From the NCBI GenBank assembly GCA_000442125.1, contig KE546968.1, positions 275,932-339,931 of the forward strand: a DNA stretch of 64,000 nucleotides. Reading direction: 5' to 3'. Of this stretch, positions 10,201-32,514 are shown one piece after another. Below the pieces are notes generated by a model. That model saw only the letters and a program-made list of their open reading frames with translations. It ran no database searches and had not been told where the DNA came from. Positions within the stretch are counted from its first letter, which is position 1, and each line of letters begins with the position of its first letter. A program made the translations under genes and the position numbers. This DNA comes from Opeltia flavorubescens. Taxonomy: Eukaryota > Ascomycota > Lecanoromycetes > Teloschistales > Teloschistaceae.

Positions 10201-10224
10201 CCCCTCAACCCCTCAACCCCTCAA
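10201..10224 (+). repeat. three perfect tandem copies of the 8-mer CCCCTCAA at the PKS stop codon
   Basis: The last codons of the PKS (FEGLRG and stop, minus strand) are written by this GAGGGGTT-type repeat, and one further copy lies past the stop. Because 8 is not a multiple of 3, a change in copy number would change the C-terminal residues. Confidence 0.85.
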
Positions 10225-13200
10225 AAACCTCCCTCGCCAATCCCCCTAGACTAAACCCCTCCCCCAGTAATTTCTGAAAACTGACCTCCAACCCAAACTC
10301 CCGGAAAATCCACGACCGGAATTCAGTCCCGATCATGCTGTCTAGGCCGAAACTCGCCAGACTCCGGCTTGCGAGTGCTTCGCTTGCCGCGCTCGTGCTT
10401 GCGGTCGCGGAATCGCTCGCACTCGACGCAGAAGTTTCGTCTGAGAGATCGAGGTTCAAAAGCCGTGCCAGACGCTGGAAGATAGATGATTGGATAGCTG
10501 CGACGGCGGCTTCAGGGGAGGAGGTTTTATGCAGTTGGCGGATGGATGAGATGGTGTTGCTGTTCGTATTGCTGTCATGACTGTGGTTGGTAGGATTAGG
10601 GGAGGAAGAAGCGGATTGCATATATTTCACAACACCCTCAAAGCGTGCATCCTCAAGCCAAAACGCATCCGTAGTCTCCCGTTGCTGGACCGAGTTGGCG
10701 AGTCGAGAGGGTTCGAAGCCGAGGATGATGGTCGCTGCTGTTGCGTCATCATCATAATCATCATTCGGACCGGATTCAAAGTTTGAACCATTGCCGATAT
10801 TTTTTGTTCGTCGGGGTTTCATCGCAGCCTCAAACCCAGCCAAGAGTTCATCTTCATGGATACCGTAGATGCCCTTTCTGAGTAAAGATTCTTCGATTTC
10901 CGGGTTGTCGGCTACGTAGCCTACGCCTAGGACCATGGGCAAGATCAAGCTAACACCAGGGAGACCTTTGCCCCTGCGATGCAGGGCGAGGGCGTCTTGG
11001 TAGGTGTTTCCCGCGGCGTAGTTGCTTTGCCCGGGGGTGCCGAGGATGCCGGACGTGGAGCTTAGGAGGACGAAGAAATCTAGTTCGAGATCGAGATGCT
11101 GGACTGCTTCGTGGAGGTTGCGTGAGCCTTTGACTTTTGGGTCGATGGTGGTGCGCCAGCTTGTGGGGTCCATGGAGTGGAAAAGACGGTCCTGATGAGT
11201 GGTAGATTACTCGTCAGCGGTTTTCATGTTCATTATTGGAGTATGGGAAATGGGGTTTTGTGTCCTTACGTTAAGGACCATAGCTGCATTAACAACGCCA
11301 CGCAGTTGTCTCTGCTGGTTGATGGTTTTCACGGCTATATTCACATCATTGCTATCAGCCACGTCGCCTTTCAAGACTGTAACTTCCACCCCGCGAGCCT
11401 CTATGCTGGAAATTAAATGTGCGGCAGCGGGACGTTCAGCGCCAGAGCGAGCCATGAAGGCGAGATGTCTGGCACCACGATCGACCATCCAAGACGTAAG
11501 ACTTCGGCCAAGACCCCCGAGACATCCTATTAGGAGGTATACTGCATCCGGGCTGAAACGTAGAGCGGGCTGTGAGGGTAGAGTCTGGAAGGCGGATTAG
11601 CGTCTTGTAAAGAGGGGATATTGATATCTGTACCTTGACGATGGGATGGTTCTCATACGAGACGACAGAGGTCCCTGAAACGATGCCGTTCGGGATTCGC
11701 GATACAACGTCGTCTACTTCGGAGATACTCGACACACACGTTGGTATTGCGGTAGAATGCATCTTATCTTTGTGCCACTGAACACACTGTCGGAGTAATC
11801 TAGTTGCTCGTTAGACGAATGCTCCGAAAAGTTCTGATGGTTGAATTTTCACCTTGCTGCCAGTTTTGGCTTTCTTTTGCAAACGTCCAACATATCAAAG
11901 CGGAGCACGTTCGCTTTGTTAGATGTCGGCAATTGGTCCAGTCCATTGGAAGAGGATTTCTCCTTGCCGATTAAGACAATCCGTGCGAACGGTGCTAGAT
12001 TCATCGCACATTCCTCGAGTAGACCGTCGAGTGTGTTTTCACTGAATATGACATCGGCCCCAAGTCCTTTAGTACATCTCTGTATCTCGTCTGCAATATT
12101 CCCGTCCTTGGAAAGTATGAGATTGTCATCGCTGAAACTAGAGTCCCGCAATTTGATATATGTGTCTTCATTTTCGGTCACGATAGTTGGTTTCGCTTTA
12201 CCAGCTTGACATACTCGCATAGCCGCGAGCCCCGCTGCTCCAGTGTTGTCAAGAATGAGAACCGTCTTAGAGAGATGTTAGTCTAAGGATTTGAGGCGTA
12301 GACATGAACACATACTTCATTTTCTTCAACATGGGCAAGCTCTTGAAGGCCATATAATGCTGTGGACAACGCCATGGGGAGCGATACCATTGTCTGACTC
12401 ATTAGACATGTCTTATAGCACCCGAAGAAGACGCTTACCTCCAATGAGTCGTTTTTCTCAATCGGACACAGCAGTATAGCAAGTGTTCTTTGAAATGTAG
12501 AGAAACCGTCAGAGGAGTATCCGACGACTCTGTCTCCAACTTTAATATGAGATACTTCTGAACCGACTGCCGTAACAATGCCTCCGACCTCGTGGCTAGA
12601 TATTGATCGAGACCCTAGTGCTGCAAGGGTAGGCGTATGCTTGAGTCTGGTCAGTCTTCAATCTGCGACAAGGATTGTTCATGCTCACAATTCCGACAGC
12701 CAAAACTTTGATTTCAGCCTGATCACTTCCTAGCGGCTGCACTGTCTCATCTTGGTCCTGAAAGTACAATTTTCCATCGTGAACCGTAGCCTTGAGCTTC
12801 GAATGGTCTCCAAGCGTGGAAGAAGCTGCCTTGTCCATAGCTGAAACACCCGTATCGATCGTCGGAGCAAGTCGACCGGTATAGATCACGCCCCTATCAA
12901 CAAGATATTCTGCCTCCAACCTACTTCCTGCTCTGACCTGTCTATCAGCGAACATCGCAATAGTCTCAGTCATTTGCTCAATAGTATTAGACGCCGTATC
13001 GAAATCCACGATCACCAAGTCAAGCGAAGCATTTTCTGACCGTAAGCATCGTGCCAGACCTGAGGTCATCGCATACTCAGGCTTTTGACCTGACAAAAGA
13101 CCTCCAGTGGTGACCCAAAGGATATGGGTGCTTGTCTGAACGAGATGCTGTAAACCTTTCAACTCGTCATCTTCAAGATCATAGCCGATGGCCCGATCAT

Positions 13201-16200
13201 TGTCTTCCAATATGATGACTTGGTCTTCAGGCCGGGCTTGCACTTCTCGTAGTAGGCTATTGCGGATTCTTCTATCGGACCAATTGTGGCCATTGAGCAA
13301 GCTGGCGGACAGTGGATTGACGTCGGTTCGCGTTACCTAGCGAAAATTAATTCATTTGTATCAAATTACTCATGACAGGATAATATGCGAACCAGCAAGG
13401 TAGATTGGCCGTCCGGGGTTGACTCTTGCTGATGCTTCTCCGGTGTTACACCATTAGTCATAGGCTCTACCCTTAACTTCTTCAGGAGTATGGTGTCTTT
13501 CTCTTTGAGATGGATTCTGCTGAAGCCGGAAGATTGCAGATCATTGAGAGTAATGTTTTCTTCAATGAAGTCAGAGCTACGATATCAAATCCGTGTTCAA
13601 CATCTCGTACCTTCACAGCATCCCATTAGCAGCAGAAATCCACCCGAGGCTAATCCACCAAAATATTGGCGTAGGTGCTCGCGCTCAAAGTTCACAGTCT
13701 GAACCTAGATTAGCTTCGCGCATCTAGATGCTCGATAGACTTACTTCTGGAACGGCGATCAGGTCATAGACTGCTTCGAGGGAGCTCTCATTTGTTTCCC
13801 TCAAGATATCAAATTCAACCATCTTGATGAAAGGATGATCTTTGAAAGTATCTTTCTTTTCCTGGAGCAGCCCTTCGGATGACATAGCAACCGTGAGATC
13901 GACTTGCACATTGCTCTTTATCAGCGCAGGCGCCAATCCGCCGTCTATATCGAGAATCTTGGTTGATACATTATTGTGGCACAGCATAGCGATGAAATCC
14001 AAGACGTCAAATTCCTCGAACGCAGTGAGTGCATCAGAAATCGGGGTCAATCCAAGATCCGGCATCCATCGCAATCGCCAATAAGGAATGTCTGGTTGGC
14101 TTCCTTGATGCTTTGGCGGAACAGCGGCTTCATATGCAACACAGTGAACTCCTTGGAGGTCCAGTATAAGTTTTCCGTCACCGGATACTAATTGCGAGTT
14201 GGCAGAAAAATGCCGATTGTCGCCATCATACACTCTTGTGTTTATCCTTGATGATTCCTCTTCGGCACGGATGCTCGCGGTCCAGAGCGTGATTGAATCG
14301 ATACCAATTGGTACAAATCCATGTGTAATACTGCTCAATTTCCCCACATATATTGATACTATGATTGATTGAAGACAACCATCAACGGTTCCCGGGTGGA
14401 TAATGTACTTTGACTCGCCTTGCGTGAGGCCAGATTCCAGCCTGATCCTTGCACTGCAGCTGGCTGCTTGGAGTTTGTGATCCATATGAATCTTGGTCAT
14501 GTTCTGGAACGTAGGACCATAATCGAATCCAACTTCGGACAAGCTTCTGTACCAAGATTTACCGCTTGCATGTAACGGAAGGATGAGGTCCGCCATCGGT
14601 ACGTGATCTAGTAATGATAAGCTTCGAGATCAATATTGAGCAGAATACTTACTCTTAGGTCTCTTGTTTATTCCGATCGTACCGGTAGCATGCTCTTTCC
14701 ACGTGCTCCCTTGTACGGGGATGGAAGATATGCTAAAGGTATACCATTGCTTTGAAGAATTTCTGGCGGAGAAGGCAGGTCCATTCCTACTACGGTGCAA
14801 AGCGAATAACGTTTCCACTCCATTGTCATTGTTCGGCACAACTAATGCGGCCTTAATAGAGACATCTCTCAATGTAAAACTGTGTATCTCTAATAAATCA
14901 TCGGAACCTATGTTAATCTGAGTGATCGCCTCTATGGCCATCGCGAAGTACCCGGCAGCCGGAAACACTACTTCGTTGCCGAGCTGTAAATGTCGTATCA
15001 GTGAGTGAACAGAAATCAATGCCTTGAGTACCTACTGTATGATCCTTGAGCCAAGGAATATCTGCTAGCCGTAGTATGTTTCGCCATTGTGGATCTCCAG
15101 GTGACAAGCCAGGGAGCATACGGCCCAGTAAGTCGTGACGAGGATGTTTGCCGCCTCGGTGTTCCCGGCTCTGTCGTGGTTCGGAATAGTATTTCTTCGA
15201 ATAATTCCATTGGTACGGGGGTAGATCGACGAGTAACGATCCAGACACATTTTCGACCTCGCCATTCGGAAGAAAACGCTCAATGCTTGTGACTGTACCA
15301 ATATCTATAGTGCTATTCCGGGCCCAGAGTTCTCCAGCAAGGTTAAGAAGTTGGTCCACGTCATTCTCTCCTCGCTTTAGCGTTGGGAAGTAAGTAAGAA
15401 CTTTATTCGCGTTTGAAGAGATCTGTCGAATTGGTCCGGAGAGTGCAGGATGAGGGCCAATCTCGACAACCATGTCCAGATCTGGCATCTTTTCTATGAG
15501 TTTAAGCATGGCCTCATTGAACAGAACCGGACTTTCGAGATTCAGTGCCCAATAGGTAGGATCAATTCCTTCGTCATCCATGAAAGACGTCGATACAGTG
15601 GATATCATACGGCAACGCCTTGGCTTCTGCGAGGCGCCAACACCACACATGTCTGCATTGATGAGCAATTTTCGATACTCAAGAGCAGCTGAGGCCATGT
15701 ATCGGGAATGGTATGCCCTTCCGCCCGTTCTAAGCACCCGAGCGAAAGTCTTCTCCGTATCGAAGCGTGCTTTGAGCTCGTCAATCGCATCTGCATCTCC
15801 ACTAAGAGTCACACTATCTGGTGAATTATGGCAGGCAACTACGACCTTGTCTTGATATCCTTCAAGATAGCGAAGTACCTCCCTTGCGCCGAGACTTACA
15901 GCCAGCATGGCTCCAGTCGCCTTGGCTGATGCTACGACTTTTCCACGATACAATGCAATTCGTATGGCATCCTGTGCTGAAAGATAGCCTGCGGTGAAAG
16001 CTGCAGCGATTTCACCTATAAACGATTATTGGTCAGATTACACAGGCAGTAAAGACGTGATACATAGGAACATACCCGACGAATGTCCGATGGTCACTTT
16101 AGGAAAGATGTTCCATCGTGCAAGTAGTTGAACGAGTCCAATTTGAACAGCCGTGCATAGCGGTTGGGCGATCTCAGCATCGTTGATATTGAAAGTGGAG

Positions 16201-18424
16201 TCGATATCTGAGAGACAACCTACGCCAAAATATGAGCATATGACGGTTGATGGCCAAGCTATTTCTTGCCTTCGATCGTCCAAGAAGGTGGGTTCGGGAG
16301 TTTGGTCAACACCTGATCGAGTTCTCGAATGGTCTTGGTATAGGATGGAAAGGCCTTGAACAGGCGCGAGCCCATCCCTTGCCACTGTGCCCCTTGGCCT
16401 GTCACATGTTTCAGCTTTGCTTACATTCGTGAATTACGATGCTGATTACCCGTGAAAACAAAACCAATAGTAGGTGAATTAGCAACCTGCTTGATATTTT
16501 GAAGTGCGTCTAGTATGTCAGTCATGATAGACTCCTGATAACATATGGTGTAAGCTCTGAATGCGAAGGTCGAGCGGCGCTCAGCCAATGTATACGCGAT
16601 ATCAAGAAGATTTGGGTGATATTTCATCTCCGAATATTTTCTGATATTTTGGATGATGGTAGTCTTATCGTGCGCAGAGAAGACCAGAAGATGAGGTTCA
16701 CCCGGCTTGCTATATATACCATTGGGAGCATTCGATTTCTCACGGGACTTGTACGCTCGGGGTGACTGGTTCCTGGTCAAATTTTCTATTATCGCATGTG
16801 CATTTGTGCCGCCATATCCAGAAGCATTGACGCTGATCCTGCTATTTTGCGACGAGGTAGGAAAAGATGTTGGTTCGGTGACAGGCTGAACGTGCCAGTC
16901 TTTCCATTGTACTACCAACAAAAAGATTAGCAGCTACATTTCTAGCTTGAACAAGAGATGAGACTCGTACCAGCAGTACTAAGGTTGACGATGCCTGCCG
17001 TCGGTGGGATGATTGCGTTCTCGATCGCCAAGATAGCCTTGATGATGGTCGATATACTGCTTGAGGCTTCGCTATGACCGATGTTCCTACGACTGTTCAA
17101 CATCGCTCTACGTAATGATACTTCAAGAAGAGCACCCACGGTTTGACCTTGAGTACGTCAGCCACATAAATCAGCGGTATCGAAATTGGAAAAGAGACTC
17201 ACACTGCCTACTAAAAGTGGTGGTCGGTTTTTCTTCTCGCCTATCATCGCCTGAGAAATGGCCTGTAGCTCTTTAGGATCTCCGGCTGGAGTTCCTGTAC
17301 CATGGCACTCCACATAGCTCGTTTTACTAGGATCGAGCCCTGCTTTTTCATATGCTGATCTTATCACGTCTACTTGCCCTTGAACGCTCGGATGGGAGAT
17401 TCCGACTCCGAAGTTTCTTCCATTGCTGTACCCTGTCAGCGATGAAATGGTCAAGCAAGCAAAACTATCGCTACTACCCACGAGTTTATTGCGGTGGAGC
17501 GAATTACTGCTCTTACAGGGTCTCCATCTCTCAAAGCTGTTGCTAATGGCTTCAAATACAATGCTCCGACACCCTCAGCCCGTGCATAGCCGTCCGCAGA
17601 CTCATCAAACGTGTGACATTGCGAAGTAGGTGATAGGACACCAAGCTTAGCGGTGTTCATATGCTGGTCAACAGTCAATATCAAGTTCGACCCACCGACA
17701 ATAGCTGCTTCGCAATCATGGCTTCTGATCGCAGAGCAGGCCATGTGAAGGGCAGTGAGCGAAGACGAGCAAGCCGTATTAATCACAGCACTGGTAGTCG
17801 TTAGCCATGAGGACTCCAAGGAAGAGATCTTTCTGACCTTGGACCATGGAAATTGAATACATGCGCAATCCTATTGGCTAGGATACCTGGATCTACGCCC
17901 GTGGCGCTATAGGTATGTCGAAAATCTGGCTCCTTGAAAGACATTTGCTGGAAATCACTCGTAAAGCTACCAATGAAGCATCCTGTAAGGGATCCTGATA
18001 CTTTTTGTAAAGCTGTGCCGCTGCTCTCTAAAGCTTCATATACAACCTCAAGCAACTTTCGTTGTTGGGGATCCATCCAAGTTGCTTCTACAGGCGTAAT
18101 ACCAAAGAATGAAGGATCAAAGTCAGCAGGATCACCTTCGAGAAAGTAACCGCCGGGGACATTGAAACTTCCTGGTCGTTCATTGTACGAATGAAAGAAC
18201 GCATCAAGATTGAAACGGCCTGGTGGAACCTTCATACTCTGTGGGCTACGAGCAGCCATCATGAGATCCCAATAATCTGAAGGAGAATCTACTTGCCCAG
18301 GAAGACGACAGGCTAGATATGAATTCAGCAGGGTAGAGGAAAAGCATTTTTTTGAAAGTAAATCAGTCATACCCATGCCAACAACAGCAATAGACTGCTC
18401 GAGGTTTCGATGCTCTCCGTCCAT
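10205..18424 (-). CDS. highly reducing type I polyketide synthase, KS-AT-DH-(remnant MT)-ER-KR-ACP
   Basis: Iterative HR-PKS encoded by many exons; start is the ATG at 18424 ([21 protein letters not shown] after removing the first intron). Domains in order: KS (about 18.37-16.9 kb) with active-site Cys in [12 protein letters not shown], His in [13 protein letters not shown] and VKPNIGHSEA; AT (about 16.4-15.5 kb) with GHSSG and YHS; DH (about 15.1-14.1 kb) with the [13 protein letters not shown] His block split by an intron and [10 protein letters not shown] Asp block; a shortened MT-like region (about 14.05-13.7 kb) in which the SAM motif reads ILDIDGG; ER (about 12.7-11.8 kb); KR (about 11.65-10.9 kb) with [10 protein letters not shown], the Ser of LLSSTSG and Tyr of [15 protein letters not shown] with FGLDSM near the end. 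No thioesterase or reductase release domain follows the ACP. The ER nucleotide loop reads [15 protein letters not shown], where active domains have GAGGVG, so ER is probably inactive. The methyltransferase is also probably dead. Confidence 0.92.
17140..17147 (-). other. 8-nt microexon inside the PKS ketosynthase
   Basis: The exon GTCAAACC is flanked by a 55-nt intron (17148-17202; GTGAGT donor, GGCTGACG branch region, CAAG acceptor) and a 53-nt intron (17087-17139; GTGGGT donor, GTAG acceptor). Only with this exon does the ketosynthase read [13 protein letters not shown], which restores the conserved Lys and the His motif. Any single-intron alternative gives a non-conserved residue series before NIGH. 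Confidence 0.8.
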
Positions 18425-20002
18425 GACTGACAGATTGATGTTCAAACCTGAAAAAAAATGACTGTCGTAGGAAGGAAGTGAAATAAATGGTAAGCAGATC
18501 GAAGCAGAGAGAGTTGATGAAAAATTTAGGGAAAAGCCAAGTATGCTTAAAAGTGTACAGATTTTTGAGCATTCATCATGGAAGTGAATGCTCAGTGCCA
18601 GTAAATGCTTTGTCGATGAGTCGACGAATATCTGCACTACAATATCTCATTCACACGAGCCACACCGCTCACTGAAGATGGAACAAGGCAAAGAGGCGCG
18701 GTGGTGGCAAATGCCTGAATTTTCGTAAGGGGGTTTTCAGCAGATGTCCATTTCCACATGCCGGCATACAAATCCTCATCCTCACTAAGATCTTCTGTGC
18801 ATGTCATCAGCCCTGAGAGGAGCGACTAGAAGAGGCCGGCCCAGATTGACGCAGATCTTTTCGAGATCCAAAGCACCGACACGTCAAAATTGAAGCCAAG
18901 GGTTGTCTGTGCCATGCAAGCAGTGAGGTTAGGGATCACATAGCCTCTCAGAATTGAAAGCCAGCAAGCGTTTCATGATGGGGCTTTTTCAAAGGATTCA
19001 TCTAAGCGCCAGGATGTGCTTCTTTGGCGTCCGGATTTTCGGATTGGTCATGCAAGAGTGGATACGTTCGTAAGTCCGCATGTACGACATGGTTGAGACT
19101 AGGGATATCCGCCCGAAATGGTTTGCCGTTGCTTCTCCCGGACGGACGGAAGGCCGGACCGCAAGTCACCCTTATTTCACAATCCTGATGGCGCAGAGGA
19201 AGAGGAGTCCCAGGCATAACGTAGTCAGACCAGCTTCGCCATATGCATGTAGATGGAGAGAGACACACTGAGACAGTATCAGCTCCTGATATTTCCACCT
19301 TGAGTACCTATCACTTGGCTGGGTTTTCAGAAGGGCTCGGCAAACTGCTCCCTGGCTTATCTGGATCGTATTCAAGGACCACAATACCTTGCCGTTCCAC
19401 AATTCCATCGATATGGAAGTTGAGGATCCCGGCCCAACCTGTCAAATTCCATTTCCATCGAATTGGTAAAAGCTCCTACCCCGGACCCCGTAGGATCCGT
19501 TCGTCGGATCAAATTCTCTCACGTCGGATGAGTGATTATGAGTCTGACAGGAGTGATCCATACCGGGAACACTATTCCTCAAGGGGTTGGTGTGAGGATT
19601 GCGCGTGAGGAAAGGATGCAATTTAAGGTTCGTTCGTAAATGTATTTGTAAAGGGCTATTCCCAATTGGGAAGGTGCGACTACCTACATTACTCTTCTAC
19701 CAAATATTATTCAGCCCACCCACAACTCATGTCGTACAGCAGTCACACGTCTGCCGAGGTGTATACCATATTGAGCTGTGCCTCGTCTTAACACAAGGAT
19801 ATCTCACATGCCAGGATCGCCAAGTATGCAGCTGCATTCAGAGGCTTGCTGCGCCATGTCTTGTCAATGTTGGTCTCCACCGACACCACGATTAATTGTA
19901 ACAACCCTCCTATTCCTCATGGATCTTTCTGTTCTGCTTCACAACATACAATGCCTAGTTGACGTTGTCTAAGGAATTACGGTCGTTCATCGTATACACA
20001 AA
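18425..20002. other. PKS upstream region, no supported gene
   Basis: No domain-bearing frame on either strand. Two direct copies of CGTCGGAT lie at 19502-19509 and 19522-19529, about 480 nt before the membrane-protein gene. This gap is where a cluster regulator might have been expected, but no Zn2Cys6, bZIP or other regulator motif is visible. Confidence 0.5.
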
Positions 20003-21132
20003 ATGTCTGCCCAGCAATCAGCTCCATTGAACAGCGAATACAACGGCTACAAGCTTACCTCCGTGGCCATCTTGTTCATTGTACTCGAAGCCATCTTCGT
20101 CGCTTCTCGCTTTTTCGCTCGACATGTGGCAAGAACACCGTGGGGTTTGGATGACTTTTTGATCCTACCGTCCCTTCTTTTCTGCTGGGGAATTGCTATA
20201 CTGTCGTTGGGTAAGTCTAGCGTGCTATCTTCAAGGACAATCTTTGACCATTGCAAAGTGATGGTGTATGCCTGCGGAGTCGGCCATCATGCGGATTATA
20301 TCCTAGCCACAGACCCAGGCACGTACACCAGTTGGGCCAAATCCGCCGTCGCCGTTGAAATCATCTATTGTACCTCGGTCGTCTTCCCTAAATTATCAAT
20401 TTTGGCCATGTATCTTCGCCTCTTTCCAGTCAAGAAAGCATATCGTTACACGATATTCATTCTCATGTTCATCATCACCACTAACGGTATTGCTGGCGTC
20501 TTGACATCTGGGCTCTCTTGCCGGCCCCTAGCGACGAGATGGAACCCTAAGCTTGGAGGTGACTGCATCAACGTCACATACTACTGGCGTTACATCAGCT
20601 TGGCGAACATCATCAGTGATGTTGTAATGCTCATCCTTCCTCTCCCCATCGTCTGGAAACTGCACGTCTCTCTGCCCCAAAAGCTGAGCTTGACCATCTT
20701 GTTCCTTACAGGAAGCTTGTGAGTAGCCACCTTGGAATCCTCCGTACACATCTCCAAGTAGACAGGGCGGGCAACTTAGAAAATTGCTAATGCACGGTTG
20801 ATTTTGATAGCGGCTTGATATCGTCTATCGTGCGCTTTGCAATTTTTTACGACAACGAAGCTTTCGTTGATGGCACATGGGCATCGGTACGACTCATGAC
20901 TTGGACATTGATCGAACCGGGAATATATTTGATCGCTGCATGTCTACCAAATCTACGACCGTTATGGCTTCACTTCCGAGAGCGGCTACCCTCGACTCGG
21001 CTGTCTCGCACGCAACTGTCAAACACAGTCCCGAAAGCTAAACAGCCCAAGTATTTCGAACTTGCGGAAAAGAACAGTGCCAATGTTGCTTCTAAATCAT
21101 CGGCATCCTCAAGAAACGATCTTGAATCATAG
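20003..21132 (+). CDS. rhodopsin-like (Pth11-related) fungal integral membrane protein
   Basis: Three exons, 20003-20210, 20259-20718 and 20811-21132, join to 329 residues. The first intron is 48 nt, a multiple of three, so the frame also reads through it; splicing restores SLVMVYACGVGHH, the usual family sequence. Seven hydrophobic segments are visible, with hallmarks of the fungal rhodopsin-like domain: RFFARHVARTPWGLDDFLI in the first loop, GVGHH, YLRLFP, CRPLATRWNP and DVVMLILPLPIVWKL. The C-terminal tail of about 60 residues is hydrophilic and Ser/Lys-rich. There is no CFEM domain. These proteins are putative GPCR-like sensors or membrane proteins of unknown ligand. It sits between the PKS and the tailoring genes, a common but unexplained position in metabolite clusters. 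It is not a Pyr4/PaxB-type terpene cyclase. Confidence 0.82.
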
Positions 21133-22383
21133 CTTCTATGAGCAGGTCCGGTGGAGGCAGCGATATCACACCACACTATACTACATCCTCCCAGCCAATT
21201 GACCATAGCGGATCGACTTGCTCGCAGGTTCACGTTGATGATGCGCCCCATCAGACATGCGTGTCATGCGACGAGCAGGTGGCAGACATTGATTGCAGAC
21301 AATGTGGCACTCTCGAGGTAATTTTACAAAGAATTTATATTTAATGATGAAGTTAACATGTGCAAGGATTTTTCTTCGCTTGGAGCTGCATTAGATTCTG
21401 GAAAAAAATTGAGATACGAGGTTGCAACCCTTGAAAGCAATGCAATGCGTGCCTGAAGATTTAAACTTACGAACTGCGGCCACCATATTACTATTGATTT
21501 TCGTATCGTGGCTGAGAGTTGTAAATCACCCATTAAAAATAACCATCCCCTTCGGATTACTCTAATCCGTTGCTGAGGGTTAAATACTTGAATGAGGGTG
21601 CTACACCAATGGACCAGAGACATAATATACCCAGCTATTTTCTACGTGCTACTGTCCAAACATTTTGTATCTCTGATAACTCCAACCTTTTGGCTTAGCA
21701 AATGCAGCCGATGCAGGAAATAATAGTAATTGATTAGCACAGTAAAGTTGCTTCAGCGAGGACCATACTTCTCAAGTCATGCTAAAAAGCGTGGCGCTGC
21801 GTCCTGTATAGCTACTTAGCTACCGCTCCCAATTACCGGTGCGCTTGAGATCCATCGTATCTTACATGTGCTGCAGGCCCGTGCCGTATCGGCTGCATTA
21901 TGAGGTCACATTGCTGTCACTCATGCTACAGCTCCGACGCACCACACCCGGATCCATGGTGGAGGCAAATTCTAGATTGCCATCCATTTGAAATTGCGGG
22001 AAATCTGCATGCAGCATCCTCGGCCGTTTCTACTGCATTTAGGGAACCATGTCAACATCGATCCTTCGACGCTGCGGCAATTTCAGGCTTAAGCTCGCCG
22101 CTGCCATGCATGTCTGCTCTTGCCGACCTGAGACAACTGTACCTAGTTCAAGGCAATACTTTCACAAAGCAAGTTTGAACGGCGAGAAAGGGCGCACTCC
22201 ATGACTGCTTGCTGAACTATGTTCAGCTCGGAACCCTCATGACACATCCTTCATAATTCCATCCCGTCTTGAAGATGGAGTTTCTTACATACCAGCCTAG
22301 AGTATCTGAGATGCCGACTCAGTTGTACTCCGATTCCCAAACTCGATGAGCTTCAGTCATCAAGAAGTGCAAAGTCCAACACC
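21133..22383. other. intergenic, no supported gene
   Basis: Only short open frames without recognisable families. The last 200 nt are presumably the promoter of the FAD monooxygenase. Confidence 0.5.
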
Positions 22384-24007
22384 ATGGCCGCATCCATACC
22401 TGAGAAACGCTTCAGAGTAATCATAGTCGGTGCCGGTATCACTGGCTTGACACTCTCACATGCTCTTACCAAAGCCGGCATAGATCACGTGGTGCTGGAG
22501 AGAGGCGATGTCGCTCCACATCATGGATCAAGTATCGGTATCCATGCGCACGGTTCCAGAGTCCTAGATCAGCTTGGATGCTTAGAGGCTGTCGAGAAAC
22601 TATGTGTTCCAATGAAGCAATTTGTCAATCGCCTACCCGACGGACGTGTTTTGACGAGTACTGATTTCTTTGATTTCATGAAAGACTGGTAAGCTCTTTA
22701 TTTTGGCCTACAATTGATTTTCCGAGAAGATTTGACGCTACGTCTAGCAATGGATATAATTTCCTCAACTTAGAACGCCGTGCTTTTCTCCAGACTATGT
22801 TTGATTGCTTGCCCGACAAGTCTGTCATCAGAACGCAGCGCCGTATCACCGAGATCATCGAGAAAGAGAGTGGAATCAAAGTGGTCCTTGCAGATGGCAC
22901 GGAGGAATACGGTGATATCGTTGTTGGCTGTGATGGTGTCAACAGCACTGTACGGCAAGCTATCTGGGCGAATGCTGAAAATACAATACCAGGCTATATC
23001 ACTTCGAAGGAAAAGCGAAGTGAGTATTCAATTCTTTGCCTCCGAAAGTCACTGACATCTAGTAGCCTTGCAAACAAGCTACACCTGTCTTTTAGGTATT
23101 GCACCGACACCTGTTGGCCTTGGTACTCGCGATATGACATGCGTTCATGGACACGCTTACTCTTTCTTATTTCTCTCGCAACCTGACCAGGTCTTCTTTT
23201 TCGTCTTCTCCAAATTGTCACGGCCTACCTCATGGCCAAACAACCAACGATGGACAGACGAAGATGCAGAAAAGGTCGCTGACGGGGTGAAAGATCATCT
23301 AGTGTCTGATTCTCTGCTCTTTGGTGAGATCTGGAGGACTCGGATACAAGGGCAGCTGGTATCTATGGAGGAAGGAATCTTTGAACAATGGCACTTTGGA
23401 AGGATGGTCTTGGCTGGAGATGCTGTACACAAGGTATTACACACTATGGACGGCTTCCATCCCTCCTCAATGGGCCAATTTATTGACGTAAAACCTGTAG
23501 GTAACGCCAAATTTTGCCTTAGGCGGGAACACCGGCATCGAAAGCGTGACCGTCCTCGCCAACGAGCTCCATCGCCTGGTACATATGACCCCGAACGGCA
23601 GACCCGACAAAGCAGCGATCACCGCAATGTTTCAAAGATATCAAATTCGGCGTCTACCTCGTGTCCGAACAGCCCATTTCGCTTCTTGGTTTATCACGCG
23701 TTTGCAAGCTTGGGACGGGATAATGATGAGATGCATGGCACAATGGATCGTACCTGTCTTTATCGGAGACAAGATGATAGCTCAGGCTTTGGGTTACCTA
23801 GTCAAGGACGCGCCTAAGCTAGACTTTATTCCGATAGAGTCGAGGAAAGGTACGATGGGGTGGAATGATGAGAAAGCCGAAGCAAGCTTAATGCAGCTGA
23901 GGTCCAAGGGCTATAGATTGTGGCGGCCTTTGGTGCTTGCTATAGCATGTGTTCTTTTCCTGGCCTGGTTGCGATGGCCGATAGGGTGTACGTTGGCCGT
24001 CTCGTAG
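22384..24007 (+). CDS. FAD-dependent monooxygenase of the PaxM type
   Basis: Four exons (22384-22688, 22748-23019, 23066-23433, 23501-24007) join to 483 residues. The dinucleotide-binding motif is VIIVGAGITGLTLSHAL near the N-terminus with the acidic end of the second strand (VVLERG). The DG motif region reads GDIVVGCDGVNSTVR, and the second FAD motif GDAVHK|VTPNFALGGNTGIE spans the last intron and confirms that splice. A C-terminal hydrophobic segment (PLVLAIACVLFLAWL) suggests membrane anchoring, as in relatives. This family (PaxM in indole diterpenes, AusM/Trt8-like in meroterpenoids) usually epoxidises prenyl double bonds. No prenyltransferase or cyclase is nearby, so here it more likely oxidises the polyketide. 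The acceptor of intron 2 is ambiguous by three bases. Confidence 0.88.
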
Positions 24008-24406
24008 GACAGGCTTCGTAATCGACATCTAGTCTGTCAAATCAGGCGCCGTATACCCTTTGCCCTCACCGTTCACTAGTGAAGTAAAATTCCATCTACA
24101 TCCCACAACAAATAACTTCACCCTTAGGTGTGCTGCATGAGTGAATATGCGGCAGGAGGACATGCAGCAGCCAAGGCAGGCATTGCTGCTGTGCCAGATG
24201 CGGGGACACCGCTTTACTGCTATAAATCCTTCATAGAATTTATCCTTCTTTGGCTCCCAAGTTCATCATCAAGGTATTCATATATCTCGCTCTCTTTCCG
24301 AGTCACGCTGATCTTTCCATAACTTCTTCCAAGTCAACAACCAAGCCAAAATACATTACGATAGTTATTTTCTTCCAAAGACCAGAACCTCAAATAATAG
24401 TTCACC

Positions 24407-26359
24407 ATGAAAGCCGTCATCATCAAGGAAACCGGTACAGCCGCATTGGCGGACATCAAGGAACAGTCCATGAGACCAGATTACATCAGAGTCAAAACGG
24501 TAGCAGTAGCATTGAATCCAAGTAACTCCCTCATTCTCATTCCTCGCCAGGGGCATCTCTACTAACATTATTCCCCCCAGCGGACTTCCAGCACACGGAC
24601 TTCGCTGGCCCTATTGGTGGCATCTTAGGTATGTCAGAATTGGCTGAACATGCAAAAAATATAGGACATTCCAATAGTTCAAGATGATGCTAACATGAAA
24701 AAAAAAATAAAAGGCTGCGATCTCTCCGGGATTGTCGAAGAAGTAGGCCCGGAATGTAAACATTCGGATGTGAAGAAAGGGGATAAAGTCTTCGCCGTTA
24801 CGCATTGTGGGAACCATGTACAGTTCACCTTCTTCTAATTTCCTCAGTCCTCATTTCCACAGTCTTTCCACACCATCCAGAACCAAAAATTCCCCTGTCC
24901 ACAGAATCCAACCAACAAGAAAAAACCAACAACATGCATTCCCCTTTCCTCCTTCCTTTTCCCACTACCCCCGAAACATTCCCATTTCCCTCCTCCTCCT
25001 CCTCCCCTGCCACTCTCTCTTCTCTCACACTGACTAACCCCCCTAACCCTCCCTAGCAAAACCTCGAAGACGGCGCTTTCGCCGAATACGCCATGGTCAA
25101 AGACGGGCACCTAGCCAAAATCCCCCCGGGCATGACTTTCGAAGATACGGCCTCGATGGGTGCGGGCGTAACCACCATCGGGCAGGCTCTGTACCATAAC
25201 CTAAAATTGCCTTGGCCAGAGGAGCCGACGAAGACGTCCTTTCCCATTTTGGTGTATGGGGGCAGTACGGCGAGTGGGACTATGGCGATGCAGTATGCGA
25301 AGCTGTGAGTCATAGTTTTTCCGAGTTCAGTCATATTTTTGTTTCTCGAGAAAGGGGGGTAAGGAGAGACGGTTGTTACTCTGGGGTCTTTTCTCCGGAG
25401 ATTCATCGTTGCCTTTCTCCTTCCTCTTGATTTTCATTTCATTTCTACACCCCGTATATTATCCCCTAAGAAACCTCGTTCATCCTCTTGATTCACACAC
25501 ACCGTTATGAGATAACTAAATTCAAGAACAAAATTACAAAACGAACCCACTTCCCCCCAGCCCTAAGAATTTTTTCTCTAACCACGGCTTACAATCATTT
25601 CATGATGTCCTCCTACTCATTCACCTTCTTTCCCCACAGATCCGGCCTCGAAGTCCTAACGACCTGCTCCCCCCACAACTCCGCCCTCGCAACCTCCTAC
25701 GGCGCCACAAAAACATTCGACTACCACTCCCCCACCTGCGGCGCCTCCATCCGCGCCCACACGCAAAACAAACTCCACCACGTCTTCGACTGCATCTCCA
25801 CCGAATCATCCTACAGAATCGACGCCGAAGCCCTAGCCCCTTCTCCCTCCGAAAATCCTCCTTCCAATACTAGCGCAAACGAAAACAAAGAACTCCACTG
25901 CCTCGGCCTCCTTCCCCCCGACCCATTCCCCACCGAGCGAGCCAAAGAGGTGAATGTGCGATGGTTATTGGCGTATACGTCTTTTGGCGAGGAATTCTTC
26001 AAGTTTGGGCAGAACTGGGAGGTGCAGAAGGAGCATTATGAGATGGGGGTTAGGTTTTGGGAATTGCATGGACGGTATTTGGCGGAGGGGAAGGTGAGGC
26101 CGCATCCGGTTGAGGTGAGGGAGGGGGGGTTGGCGAAGGTGCATGAGGGGTGAGTTCTTTCCTTTTTTCCTTTCTTTTAATGCCCCGTTACTTTTTTGGA
26201 TGATATTTGGTACTTTTCGCCTTTCTTTTTCTGTCCTCTAGGCGGACTTTTGGGGAGGGAAGGGTGGTAGTGGGAACATATGGCAGATCGCAAATCGAAA
26301 AAAAAAGTCAAGAGGCGGCAGCGAAGAAGAGAGAAGAGAAGAAGCATTCGACACATTAA
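24407..26359 (+). CDS. trans-acting enoyl reductase, LovC/ToxD-type medium-chain reductase
   Basis: Six exons (24407-24521, 24581-24628, 24714-24817, 25057-25304, 25640-26149, 26242-26359) join to 380 residues. Start MKAVIIKETGTAALADIKEQ, then NPTDFQHTDFAGPIGGILGC, DLSGIVEEVG and EDGAFAEYAMVKDG, the sequence series typical of stand-alone enoyl reductases of PKS clusters. The cofactor loop is VYGGSTASGTMAMQYAKLSG, intact in length and the usual GGSTA.G form. The catalytic zinc ligands of alcohol dehydrogenases are absent, as expected. Introns 3 (239 nt) and 4 (335 nt) are several times longer than others here. The region after YRIDAEALAPSP carries a low-complexity insertion, and the last exon ends in a Lys/Glu-rich tail, so the C-terminus is the least certain part. 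Likely partner of the PKS at 10.2-18.4 kb. Confidence 0.87.
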
Positions 26360-28347
26360 ATTGGCAAAGCATGATTTTTTCTTCTAAAAAAATCAACTAA
26401 CTCCCTAAACCTTCTCGTAAACAGGATCGATGATCTCCGACACGGACGCGTCAGTGGCACGAAATTGGTCTATCGTGTCGCCGATACACCTGGCTTGAGT
26501 TAAGTCTTTGTATGGGACAATACCAACAAATAAGTTTTCTAGAGGAATGTTAGTAGTGTAGCGTGCTAGGCAGGCTAGTAGGTAGATATTGGCATATGCA
26601 GGAGATTATGTGTCATNCTTATAGATCTGAAATTACTTAGAAGAGCATGGATTCAGCGGTCTTCTGGCATGGAGGAAAATCATAGAGCTAGGAGAAATCA
26701 ATAGGAAAGAGCAATTGTACTAGCAGTTTCATCGCTTTTCTTGTATCTTCATCGGCGGAGCCAACTCCAAAATTTCATCGAAATAAATCTGCCATTCCGC
26801 CAGTCTTAAAGATCCATATAGCCCCCTCAACAAGCAAAAACAGAGGAACTCTAATTCGAATCCATTTCCCATTTCCCGAAAAAAACGCCCTACATTTGAT
26901 CAATTAATTCTACATCTAACCTTCTTCTCCCTCCCCCTCCCCTTCCTCCTCCTCCATTCTACAAACAACAAGTTTGGAAGGCAAGCCAAAGACCCAACAC
27001 CCAAGAATCCTCAAAAATACCATTACCTCCATAACCTTATCAAAACAAACCTACTGCAAAGAACTCAATAATAAATTTTTTTTCCCATCTTCAGGCCGGG
27101 AGAAAGGCGGATATTTTGTGTTTTTTTGCAATACCAGTCGTATCAAGAACGATAGTTGGCTCATTTTCCTCAAAATACGTATAGAGATTTTATACGTGAA
27201 GCGTTGGTGGAAAAGTCCTCTTGAAGAGACAGACGCCTTGATGATTTCTTATGTAGTGAAAATATGTTTTTGCTGTACTTGATTCCATGCTAGAGTAATG
27301 TCGTGGATAAGGTGATGATAATAATAATGATGATGATTATTAACTCGCGTGGGAATGCTTAGAGAGGGAATAGGGGCAGATTTGGTACTATTGAACTGTT
27401 CTCGTTCCTACATTAAGGACTTTGTGATGAATATCTCGTTCGAAAAATGGGAGGGAGGGCGTAGTAACGATCTGCTGTGAGGATGATCGTGGCGCCGAGT
27501 TAATTAGCTAGATAATCTGAGTCAGTAGTTGTACATTCGTAGGAAACCGATCTGGGCTGTAGGGGCTTGATATATTTATATACGGAGTATATATACACTA
27601 GTACATTGAATATGTACCGATTGTATTTGCCTCCTCTATATGAGAGAACCGAAGGAGTGCGAAACTTAACCACCGTTATCACTTCCCTGCAATTCTTAAA
27701 ACTTCATGAATCTATTCTTTTTTCCCTCTGTTTTTTCTTTCAGTCAATATTTCCCCCTCGATCTAGAACGCGATACCCAGCTTTCTCATAAACAAAGGGG
27801 TTTTCCCCAGTTGCCACATGCAGGTATAGATAACTACGGGCTGTGGATTGATACCAAGGGGTTGGATAATGGATTTTTCCAAGGGGTGTGATATAGTTTA
27901 TTATTTGGGGAGGGGATGGGGAGGAGGGGGGTTGATGGATTATTATGGTGGTGTGTGGTGGTTGTGATTGTGATTGAGTTCAAGTGTAGGGGGGTGTGCT
28001 CTGCGTTGGATATCCCTGGTAGATTGTTATTATCGCCTATAAGTAATGTGTGGTCCGTCGACGTCACGAATTGAATGAATGATATAGTTGAGCTTCTCAT
28101 AACGGAAGACAGCCAAAATTGGGCCAAATTAGGAGTCAGGACCGCATTTGGACGGTGGAAATGTATCAAATGATTAAGGGTACATACAGAGCAACTTTTT
28201 GTGAGCCAAAAAAAATCATTCAAAGAGTTCCGTATTGCGCACCTTCTATAAGAGTAGAGTCCGCATCCAATTCGGGTGTTGAATTCTAATTCCCAACCAT
28301 AGAGGCCATATCCCCGAAGAGAACTCGCACAGGAAAAAGAAAAAAAT
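26360..28347. other. AT-rich intergenic region, no supported gene
   Basis: Contains short low-complexity runs, including a GAT/AAT microsatellite at about 27313-27342 and pyrimidine runs near 26925-26955, and one ambiguous base at 26617. The long open frame on the minus strand near 27.8-28.6 kb is an out-of-frame shadow of the GH76 gene 3' end. Confidence 0.5.
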
Positions 28348-29838
28348 TCACTGCAGAATCCACCGCTGCTGGCCCTCCCCATTCCACCCAAACTGCACCA
28401 ACTTCGCCCCATTGTCCTTACTGGACGCACCATCCAAAGCTTTCTGACTCGCTTGGTTCCAAATCTTATACCCCCCCTCCTCATCATCCAGCCTCTTAAT
28501 CCCCCACCGCTGATTTCCCCCCCTATGCGAAAACCACTGCTCAATCCCCAAACCATCATCGTCTTTCCCACCAGGACAATCCAGCGCTTGCCAAGTAGCC
28601 AAATTAACGATATTCCACGACTTATCTGAATTCTGTGTCAGGAGCCAGCGCTGATTGAGGCTGGTGTTGGCACCCCATTGTATAACTGGTTTTCCGTTGC
28701 CGAAGGTGCCGGCGCTGTCGATTGTCATTCCCGTCTTCTGGTTTTTAATAACGTGGATGCCTCCGATTTCGCTGGGGGGAGAAGCAGGCGTGTACTGCAA
28801 CCAAGCAACCGCACTGACGAATTTATTCGCTGTCAAAGAGTTATCATCAGTAGGGGTAGGTTGATCCCAAGCATTCCACGTAATGCCCAGATCCGGTCTA
28901 AGGTTCTTCAATATCGAATTCGCGTTTTGTAACATCCATAGGTAATAAATATCCCATAGTCGATTAGCTTGGACAAAGTGTCCCACACCGCGAGCCATCT
29001 CGTCGGCCCAGGTATTCAGGTAGTTGGCGCCGTTGCTGAAGATGCCATTCACAGTCAAATGATCCTTACCGAAATCAATGGCCTTTTTCGCATCATCGTA
29101 ATAATCTTGATCGCCCGTGATTTCGAAAAGCAGGTTCGCGTAGTCCAGGAAAGTGCCCTGATTATATGCTGCTGTTCCCGTGTCGACTTTTCCATTCTGG
29201 TCCACTCCGGTGTTGATCTGCCCCGTTTCGGGATTGAAAAGATGTGTTTTTACCCAGGCGTAGATTTGTATGGCTCTTTGCTTATAACCTTCATCATGTG
29301 TGGTTTGGTAGAGAATAGCGGCGACCTTTCCTAGGCTGTCGTTCGCTAGAGCTTCTTTGGTCGCCTGCCTAGGAGGGTTCTCCTTAGCAGTATACTCAGG
29401 ATTCTCTTCCCAGATACCGCCATCGTTGTGTTGAGTTTCCCAACCACGACCAAAAGCGTAATCGAAGCCGTATCTCGTCGCGTCTAGAAATGACTGGGTA
29501 CCTGTGATCTGGTAGCCGCGGACGAGCGCAAGCGTGAACCATCCGATATCATCATTCCAACCGTCCCAGCTCCAGGGCGTAGGATTATATTTTAGCCACG
29601 TCGTCAATAGATCGTTCACCAAGGTCTTCTTGTCGGGATCGCCGGTCCGCTCGTAAGCGTCCTCCGCGCCGAGAATGTCGAGGGAGCCTCCCCAAGTTCC
29701 ATCTTTGTCTGATTTATCGAGCGCTGACTTGTAGAAGACGTCACCACCATCTCTTATTAAGAGGGCGTTGTTGAAGGCATTGAACATTGCCTCTGCGTCA
29801 CCTTGTCCTAAGGCAGCTGCCGCGACTGGAGTCGCCAT
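28348..29838 (-). CDS. GH76 family protein with C-terminal ricin B-type lectin domain
   Basis: Single exon; I choose the ATG at 29838 (MATPVAAAALGQGDAEAMF, 496 residues), with another in-frame ATG at 29877. Residues about 15-340 form a GH76 alpha/alpha-barrel: WGGSLDILGAEDAYERTG, the catalytic Asp pair in WDGWNDDIGWFTLALVRGYQ, GGIWEENPEYTAKE, TAAYNQGTFLDYA and a final helical part. Family members hydrolyse or transglycosylate alpha-1,6-mannan. From about residue 360 follows a ricin B beta-trefoil with three QxW-type repeats (NQRWLLTQ, NQRWGIKR, QQRWILQ) that presumably binds sugar. No signal peptide is evident at either start, which is odd for this family; an unrecognised upstream exon or non-classical localisation is possible. 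The coding strand becomes strongly G-rich near the 3' end. Confidence 0.87.
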   Translation of the reverse strand: MATPVAAAALGQGDAEAMFNAFNNALLIRDGGDVFYKSALDKSDKDGTWGGSLDILGAEDAYERTGDPDKKTLVNDLLTTWLKYNPTPWSWDGWNDDIGWFTLALVRGYQITGTQSFLDATRYGFDYAFGRGWETQHNDGGIWEENPEYTAKENPPRQATKEALANDSLGKVAAILYQTTHDEGYKQRAIQIYAWVKTHLFNPETGQINTGVDQNGKVDTGTAAYNQGTFLDYANLLFEITGDQDYYDDAKKAIDFGKDHLTVNGIFSNGANYLNTWADEMARGVGHFVQANRLWDIYYLWMLQNANSILKNLRPDLGITWNAWDQPTPTDDNSLTANKFVSAVAWLQYTPASPPSEIGGIHVIKNQKTGMTIDSAGTFGNGKPVIQWGANTSLNQRWLLTQNSDKSWNIVNLATWQALDCPGGKDDDGLGIEQWFSHRGGNQRWGIKRLDDEEGGYKIWNQASQKALDGASSKDNGAKLVQFGWNGEGQQRWILQ

Positions 29839-30845
29839 GGTAACTTCTGTATGCGTACTGGTTGTGAAATGATGCAAAGACTTGTGCTTGGATCTTGATA
29901 GAGATAGAGACGCGTAGATTACTGAACAAAGATCGGAGTATAGAAAATCCGACGAAAACGAGAAACGAGAAAAGTGCTAGAGCTTATATTTTACCAACGG
30001 TACCCACCGGTTGCGTAAAAAGGATGGAGGATCATGTCGCATGTTCAAGTCATTGCGTGACGCTTTAGCAGGACGTCGATTGCGCCATCTTCCATTACGA
30101 ATTATCAAAGAGACAAAAAACTGAGGCAAAGGAAGAACTTTCAACATGTCGCATGCTTCGATCAGGTGTCTCGTGGCTTGTTGCCCTTATAGGATTGCGA
30201 TTGCGCCCCTAATGAATCCTCTATGGCGATTCCATCCTGCCTCAGAATAGAATCTAACAATTCTCTGCTTCGGATCAAGTTTCATATGATGCAGCGATCT
30301 TAAGCCGATAATTCCATTGACTTCGTACGTATGATACATACCAAGAATGCGCTTACTGTCTGGCCAAATGGTCATGCCCAAGTTCGCACCCACGTCCACC
30401 AATGGCATTATTATTGAAGCGACTGAGCCTGAGAACAACAGATACACAGAAAATGGAATTGTCGGATTCGCAGAAAGAAAGAGATATGAGAAAAGAACAA
30501 CACTAGTTAATCCTTGCATAGTGATGATCGTGAGCAACCTACTTCGGAGGTCGTCGTTGCTTCGTCGTAAAGGATCGCCTTGTGATTGCACATATGTTCC
30601 TCCTATGGCTTAGCCGGACGATGAGCATCTCGAGTGTCAACTGGTGAACGCAGTGACAAGGAGCATGTGCTCTCCTGTTCAACTTGTCTGCCGGCTGACG
30701 CCACGCTTTGCGATCTTTAAGTATTCACTTATGTACTGCTGTCTGGGTCAACGTGCATTTTTGAGCTCATCTTCAAGGTCCTCTGCCTTGAACGGATATT
30801 TTCATGAGATTGCTTCAAGTCCGTCATTAATTTCTTACAGCTAAA
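29839..30845. other. intergenic with a possible membrane-protein relic
   Basis: Upstream region shared by the GH76 and SGNH genes, which are divergently transcribed. It contains the low-confidence open stretch described at 30187-30600. Confidence 0.4.
30187..30600 (-). pseudogene. possible relic of a multi-spanning membrane protein
   Basis: An open minus-strand frame of about 138 codons has two or three hydrophobic segments (LLTIITMQGLTSVVLFSYLF and VYLLFSGSVASIIMPLV) but no ATG at its beginning. Upstream on the same strand, near 30700-30800, another frame has protein-like composition (DLEDELKNAR, YISEYLKIAKRGVSRRQ) but is interrupted by a stop and I could not link it by a plausible intron. 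It may be a decayed gene or chance; no family is recognised. Confidence 0.3.
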
Positions 30846-32514
30846 ATGTTTATTCTTTTCGTCATCTGCTTCCTACCTTTCTTTGCTAGCGGGTTAGTGA
30901 TAAGAGCCACGATGCCAAAGCTGCGAATCATGCCTTTAGGAAGTACGAGCTAGCCAAGCTTACCATTACATACTTTTGTTAATGCGAGGTGCAGATTCCA
31001 TAACGGCAGGTTTTCCAGGGGATCCATCCTTACCAGGAAGGCCTTACAACGGCTATCGGAAGCACCTTTCGGAACTTCTCGCCGGAGATGGCCACATCGC
31101 TGATTTCATCGGATCTCATCGAGATGGTGATTTTGCGAATAACCGGCACGAGGGGGAATCAGGGGCGAAAATCAGCAAGATATCTTCAAATGCAGACAAA
31201 AGCCTGCCGGAGCGACCGAATGTTGTGCTCCTCCACGCAGGTACTAATGATGTTGGTGCCACGCCAGATGCACCTCAACAGCTAGCCAACTTGGTCGATA
31301 AGATTCTTTCACAGTGTCCTGACGCCACGGTCCTGGTAGCAACAATCATACATCGAGGAGATGCAGATATCGATGCCAAGACAGTCGACTATAACAACGA
31401 GGTACGCAAGGTCGTAGACGCCCGACAAGGACAGCACGTCTATCTTGTAGACCAGTATTCTGCCATCTTGTCTGGTGATCTAATCGATCGTATACATCCA
31501 ACTCCAGCTGGGTATGACAAGATGGCTGAGGTCTGGAGAACGGCAATTCACCAAGTAATCGGTCTGGGATGGATCCAAGATCCAGTAGCGGGTACCCAAG
31601 GTCCAGGGACGAAACAGATCTGTACTGATACCCTGTTCTGGAATCCTTTCGGCGAGTTGCTCAGCGGAGGAGGGTTGGGCGCGGACCTCGACCAATCCGG
31701 TGCCCATGCAGTGACGTTCGCGGACCTTAACGGGGATGGCCGAGACGACTTCATCTGGATTGGTCCTAACGGCGAAGCCACCGCCTACGTCAACGGAGGG
31801 CCTGCCGCTGACGGTACTTGGATATGGTACCCCCAGCCTTCGAACATAGCTGGTGGAGTCGGCGGCAAAAGGGGCGAAATCCAGTTTGCAGATCTCAACG
31901 ATGACGGCCGCGCGGAATATCTCTGGGTCCACCCAGATGGTTCCGTCGACGTGTGGCTTAACCAACAACAGTCTACCGAGACGGCATCGAAGCTGGCAAT
32001 CAACTGGCTTCCCCAGACCCGAAGTGCCGGTGGCATTGGACGTGATGGAGCTGGAGTAAGATTTTCAGATCTGAACGGGGATGGACGGGCCGAGTATATC
32101 TATGTACAGGATGACGGTAGTCTCATCGTCTACTTGAATACAGGTAGCCAAGATAATGGACCCAACGCGGGGGTCATCAACTGGTCACTTCAGACGCAGA
32201 CCTCTGCTAGGATTGCAGCCAGTCGCAACGAAGTCGTCTTTGCTGACATTAACGGTGATGGCGGAAGCGATTACTTGAGGGTGTCAAGGACAGACGGAAG
32301 TGTCATCGAGTCCATGAATGGAGGTGGACAGGATACTGGACCGAACGCCGCCGTCATCAACTGGATTCCTCTCTCGGGTCTTGTCACAAGTGGAGGCGGT
32401 ACCAATGGACGTGGGACGATGTTTGCTGATATCAACGGCGATGGGAGAGCCGACTTCTTGGATGTCAACCCGAATACCTCCGCGGTCAACATGTGGCTTA
32501 ATGGGTGCTCTTGA
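30846..32514 (+). CDS. secreted SGNH/GDSL hydrolase fused to FG-GAP/VCBS repeats
   Basis: Two exons (30846-30942 and 30995-32514) join to 538 residues. The first exon supplies a signal peptide (MFILFVICFLPFFASGLV) and the start of catalytic block I; splicing creates RIMPLG-NSITAGFPG with the nucleophile Ser. Block III is LLHAGTNDVGA and block V is DRIHPTPAGYDKM, giving Ser-Asp-His. Residues about 240-538 contain five repeats of the form FADLNGDGRDDFIWI, each with the calcium-binding DxNxDGxxD loop, predicted to fold as part of a beta-propeller or lectin-like platform. One repeat has NGDGGSDY. Likely an extracellular esterase or acetylesterase acting on polysaccharide; the substrate cannot be read from sequence. 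It neighbours GH76 in divergent orientation. Confidence 0.88.

Follow-up and report, generated by a model that had tools for sequence, protein, structure and literature searches.

A highly reducing polyketide synthase with a degenerate enoyl reductase domain and a neighboring LovC-like reductase in Opeltia flavorubescens

Results

The window analyzed here is a stretch of 64,000 nucleotides from contig KE546968.1 (C4) of the Opeltia flavorubescens assembly GCA_000442125.1, which comprises 34.4 Mb in 23 contigs. It carries a gene for a fungal highly reducing polyketide synthase (HR-PKS) of the nonhybrid type, the enoyl reductase (ER) domain of which is predicted from alignment to be inactive (ER0), and a separate gene for a reductase that, by sequence comparison, is a putative LovC-type trans-ER. 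The two genes are about 6 kb apart on opposite strands (PKS, −; reductase, +) and probably constitute another uncharacterized HR-PKS/trans-ER system, such pairs being well known. The explanation we favored, and considered rather better than an even chance, is that of a small uncharacterized polyketide cluster of the LovB/LovC kind, in which this pair would be joined by one or two further genes. A division of labor of the LovB/LovC type was deemed the best reading since the loss of the ER, the kinship of the reductase with LovC, and the adjacency of the two genes all fit with it.

The ER0 domain was located at 11643..12769 (−), with its diagnostic segments of 11 residues within 12694-12613 (read across an intron) and of 14 residues, the nucleotide loop, at 12259-12218. 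The latter was found as quoted in the earlier note, whose claim of a degenerate NADPH loop was thus confirmed, and to it was added the loss of the NFxD motif. Over this region Pfam returned ADH_N at 3.2e-05, barely above the cutoff, and ADH_zinc_N at 4.9e-04, below it. The domain was aligned with the ERs of other PKSs from the same genome and with CurK; the own-genome ERs had been retrieved with the degenerate window ER as the query, so that further ERs may be missed. The alignment, which the earlier note had proposed as a check, showed N[FW]xD in all five of the other own-genome ERs in which the position was visible (C9, C11, C15, C18, and C21) and HTPT in the window. The GGxG of the nucleotide loop was present in each of the four own-genome ERs showing it (C9, C11, C15, and C18, the last of which has stops in frame), and the window read GAAG. 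The same four ERs had a lysine after the loop (SEEK, SQVK, TEMK, and TSDK), presumably facing NADPH, which was lacking in the window ER. L034 and L036 were left out of these counts, as NFR stood at the end of the open frame and no loop was seen. The identity of the window ER to the other ERs was 21-32%, while that of the C9, C11, and C15 ERs among themselves was 45-53%. In the C18 PKS (L029, C18:32372-36331), the ER match contained three stops (one TAG and two TAA), and this locus may be either spliced or decaying.

Apart from the lost nucleotide loop and NFxD, the domain remained recognizable and could be aligned with other ERs along its length, and to this extent, that is, from alignment, the claim that the ER fold is retained was upheld. 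Among the matches listed, its nearest relatives in the PDB were the ERs of bacterial PKSs, with CurK at an E value of 1.5e-19. LovB was not among the best 60 of 120 PDB matches to the window ER, and its match to a query spanning ER0 and KR covered the KR only. This difference suggests that the window ER is less eroded than that of LovB and was lost independently. The alignment with bacterial ERs of solved structure over most of the domain could also be taken to mean that the ER is still active despite its unusual loop. In PMC5369529, N1573 and D1576 (vertebrate fatty acid synthase numbering) are named as conserved residues, yet mutagenesis gave no strong support for N1573, D1576, and K1771 controlling the stereochemistry of protonation, which also counts in favor of this idea; N1573 and D1576 are presumably the N and D of NFxD. 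An active ER was nevertheless considered highly improbable because NFxD, GGxG, and the lysine common to the four own-genome ERs showing that part were lost jointly.

The reductase gene at 24407..26503 (+) was modeled with 6 exons encoding 367 amino acids, and its assignment was drawn from the gene model, Pfam, the PDB match, and alignment. Its YGGSTASG loop lies at 25255-25278 (+), so that the intact LovC/ToxD-like reductase with a GGSTASG loop described earlier at this distance from the PKS was recovered as an open reading. The best PDB match was LovC (E value of 1.8e-49), and the next other protein was at 7e-11. The reductase was then compared with LovC, in the form of two printed segments, and with nine own-genome relatives. 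The reductase and LovC were reciprocal best matches (179 bits by blastp), with scores otherwise not exceeding 112 for the reductase against the relatives or 128 for LovC. In the tree, five of the relatives were set apart (83/83). Both extension loops of LovC, xL1 and xL2 (described in PMC11943018), were seen by eye in the alignment of the reductase. By the same inspection xL2 was short or absent in eight of the nine relatives; xL1 was common to several of them and therefore did not discriminate. Within this set, the reductase is accordingly closer to LovC than to the other medium-chain dehydrogenase/reductase (MDR) proteins as far as their sequences were compared. Its final three introns were long (239, 335, and 275 bp, within 24818-26424 on the + strand), with those of the other three modeled genes measuring 40-92 bp. 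The G+C content at third codon positions (GC3) was 0.658 for the reductase versus 0.485 for the PKS, from which no conclusion on foreign origin is drawn since the other open frames in the window span 0.45 to 0.68, a range from which the GH76 row (0.424) is excluded, the length used for it not being a multiple of three.

Several observations weigh against a LovB/LovC-type partnership. Of the LovC residues K54, T139, and G282, reported in PMC11943018 to affect enoyl reduction, T139 alone was retained; alignment placed Q at the K54 position (in NPTDFQ, encoded within 24515-24591 on both sides of an intron) and A at that of G282, and the GXXTXXA motif ended in G. These residues were not treated as strictly defining trans-ERs, and the loss of K54 calls for caution but does not prove the enzyme inactive, because the position was variable among the own-genome relatives showing it. 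The fork in the tree comprising the reductase, LovC, L020, and L023 was not settled. Docking was also considered. LovC binds the MAT domain of LovB, and the complex is broken by altering T271-M274 of LovC or E747-S750 of LovB, according to PMC7870829. The stretch of the reductase aligned to the T271-M274 loop was two residues shorter, and E747-D748-E749-S750 of LovB corresponded to D-T-E-K in the window PKS, with E749 as the sole identity. At the same place, the C15 PKS, in which the ER motifs are intact, read K-K-E-N. Over LovB 712-756, which represents 45 of the 63 residues modeled in PMC7870829, the window AT was identical to LovB at 25 of 45 positions versus 24 of 45 for psoA; as it is about as close to the one as to the other, this stretch does not discriminate, and the AT interface was dropped as support for docking. 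With regard to adjacency, an MDR reductase gene, L013, was found roughly 5.5 kb (estimated from open frames) from L031, the C15 HR-PKS with intact ER motifs. This pair served as the adjacency control, and since an MDR gene thus also occurs near a PKS with an intact ER, adjacency alone was considered weak evidence for partnership. L013 lacked xL2. Lastly, Pfam recognized neither a thioesterase or other release enzyme nor a transporter or dedicated regulator in 20 flanking frames, although spliced genes in short frames could escape such a search.

The main rival explanation was judged unlikely: the PKS may make a fully unsaturated polyene with no need for an ER, a FAD-dependent monooxygenase (FMO) may epoxidize it in the style of aurovertin or citreoviridin, and the LovC-like gene may be an unrelated neighbor. 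The FMO gene at 22384..24007 (+; PF01494, FAD_binding_3; 4 exons, 473 amino acids), called PaxM-type in the earlier note, has the PKS to one side and the reductase to the other and encodes one C-terminal hydrophobic segment. Both features are in keeping with this explanation, as is the replacement of K54 in the reductase. So is the architecture of the aurovertin, citreoviridin, asteltoxin, and deoxyverrucosidin clusters, in which the HR-PKS is listed without an ER (KS-AT-DH-cMT-KR-ACP) beside an FMO (PMC12312803). However, in those clusters the PKS contains a C-methyltransferase domain, an O-methyltransferase is also present, and three have an epoxide hydrolase, none of which was recognized here by Pfam in the four modeled genes and 20 flanking frames; a trans-ER is not mentioned for them in the part of that source consulted. 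Furthermore, no other own-genome gene in the compared set was as close to LovC as the reductase.

The four gene models (the PKS, a rhodopsin-domain protein, the FMO, and the reductase) were built from sequence only, by using intron boundaries and frame continuity, and all were open without internal stops. The PKS gene at 10205..18424 (−) has 21 exons and encodes 2386 amino acids in the order KS-AT-DH-MT0-psiKR-ER0-KR-ACP, as deduced from the gene model and Pfam. The feature had previously been given as 10205..26359; the PKS boundary at 10205 held, while the end did not, as the sixth exon of the reductase (26425-26503) lies beyond it and brings the end of the gene to 144 bp past that position. 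Among the 20 PKS introns, 19 were GT-AG and one, the candidate at 16269-16220 (−) inside the AT domain, was GC-AG. This splice requires RNA evidence because the AT frame meets a TAG if the intron is not removed. Frameshift-broken genes were considered and rejected, as introns accounted for every frame change in the models.

The remaining PKS domains, all on the − strand, were assigned as follows. The KS (16993..18397; Pfam, 8.1e-73) contained the active site INTACSSSL at 17783-17757; the AT (15339..16462; 1.9e-53, with gene model and PDB match) contained GHSSGE; the DH (14117..15137), also found by Pfam, had its histidine in WLKDHT; and the KR (10934..11545; 4.6e-61) retained the GGLG loop and the Ser/Tyr/Asn pattern. 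The ACP (10208..10489) was read from the sequence by its FGLDSM and had no listed Pfam match, and the psiKR gave a weak, sdrA-like match (2.2e-08). Judged by eye, the motifs of KS, AT, DH, KR, and ACP were all retained, these being the motifs that we take to mark the respective active domains. The Pfam listing for the PKS included no methyltransferase, condensation, or thioesterase family, and by both the gene model and Pfam the chain ends after the ACP. A PKS-NRPS (nonribosomal peptide synthetase) or LovB-type C terminus was therefore rejected, in agreement with the earlier note. Between the DH and the psiKR, a methyltransferase remnant was located at 13396..14092 (amino acids 1249-1450), about 200 residues rather than the roughly 110 claimed before; that the domain is reduced was borne out by the loss of its motif and of any Pfam methyltransferase match. 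The window PKS reads ILDIDGG at the motif; of the other own-genome PKS loci, seven show this place, and six of them have E-I/V-G-A/G-G-T-G. Such a loss is not unique within the genome since another HR-PKS, L036 (C8:48000-57999), reads EISSWAD; NFR is retained in its ER. In the KS tree, the window KS grouped with L036, L050, L008, L039, psoA, and the long-branch L038, and this group was separated at 98/99 from nine further KSs of the genome. Both L036 and L050 have a DH.

With two degenerate domains (MT and ER) and one AT intron that must be of the rare GC-AG type to avoid a stop, the PKS might be read as a nonproducing relic in which decay has begun. This was thought very unlikely: the model runs through 21 exons with no other stop, the active-site motifs of the five domains named above are conserved, and the GC3 of the ER0 (0.461) is similar to that of the AT (0.464) and the DH (0.466).

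The fourth gene, at 20003..21132 (+), was assigned by gene model and Pfam to a membrane protein with a fungal rhodopsin domain (PF20684; 3 exons, 329 amino acids). The flanks contained 36 open frames of at least 140 amino acids, of which 18, together with two shorter ones, were run against Pfam; 7 of the 20 had no Pfam family. The named families were GH76 with a lectin, GDSL lipase with FG-GAP, ankyrin repeats, DUF7580, UNC45, Tfb4, RTP1, Sen54, asparaginase, zinc dehydrogenases, and the start of Clr5, and from these names the genes look like housekeeping or unrelated ones. Two of them were fusions, a GH76 glycoside hydrolase with a ricin-type lectin domain at 28351-29976 (−) and a GDSL lipase with FG-GAP repeats at 30940-32511 (+). 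The NCBIfam scan listed 12 families, none of which was over its own cutoff.

Discussion

The analogy with LovB/LovC, drawn in the earlier note, held in part. As in that system, a PKS with a dead ER is accompanied by a separate MDR reductase carrying xL1 and xL2, and the best PDB matches of the window reductase and the window AT were LovC and LovB, respectively. It did not hold for the docking loop or for the K54 and G282 positions, at which the window reductase departs from LovC, nor for the PKS as a whole: LovB terminates in a CON domain and is described in PMC7870829 as active in every domain except the ER, whereas the window PKS has neither a CON domain nor the methyltransferase motif.

The combination had also been called uncommon, and this could not be maintained. 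In the fusarielin system, an HR-PKS without an NRPS (FSL1) has an inactive ER and is served by a trans-ER (FSL5), the deletion of which abolished the product; unlike the window PKS, FSL1 is listed with a methyltransferase, fusarielins bear five methylations, and the cluster has a thioesterase, an epimerase, a P450, and a transcription factor (PMC6274466). The four-gene fusamarin cluster has an HR-PKS without an NRPS (FMN1), a C-Met domain judged nonfunctional, and a trans-ER (FMN2) required for the product; its remaining two genes differ, being a trans-thioesterase and a transcription factor, with no FMO or rhodopsin-domain gene. The same source (PMC10947347) calls an inactive C-Met in HR-PKSs not uncommon and lists twelve trans-ERs. 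With FSL1/FSL5 and FMN1/FMN2 both published as non-NRPS HR-PKSs with trans-ERs and deletion phenotypes, the present finding was considered real but ordinary. The literature was searched for trans-ERs, ER0, LovB-LovC, and FMO clusters rather than for this gene set, and the cluster is not claimed to be unpublished.

If the pair works in the LovB/LovC manner, the dead ER would persist in a scaffolding role within the PKS dimer, as has been described for LovB, and the separate reductase would bind the PKS, with the AT domain as the docking site if LovB/LovC is the guide, and reduce the enoyl-ACP in selected rounds. The expected product is a partly reduced polyene chain without branches, which the FMO may oxidize afterwards. 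The chain would be released either spontaneously, for instance as a pyrone, or by an enzyme encoded elsewhere. A more particular version, which we regarded as doubtful and quite unlikely, is that the window ER died independently of that of LovB and that the PKS recruited a LovC-like reductase working without Lys54 and Gly282 and docking via a different, shortened loop. If true, the same split enzyme would have been assembled by two different routes.

A working pair would add another HR-PKS/trans-ER cluster, with a product that is probably unmethylated and partly reduced, and would serve as a test of the extent to which the interface and active site known from LovB-LovC are required. Our overall understanding of split enoyl reduction in fungi would be unchanged.

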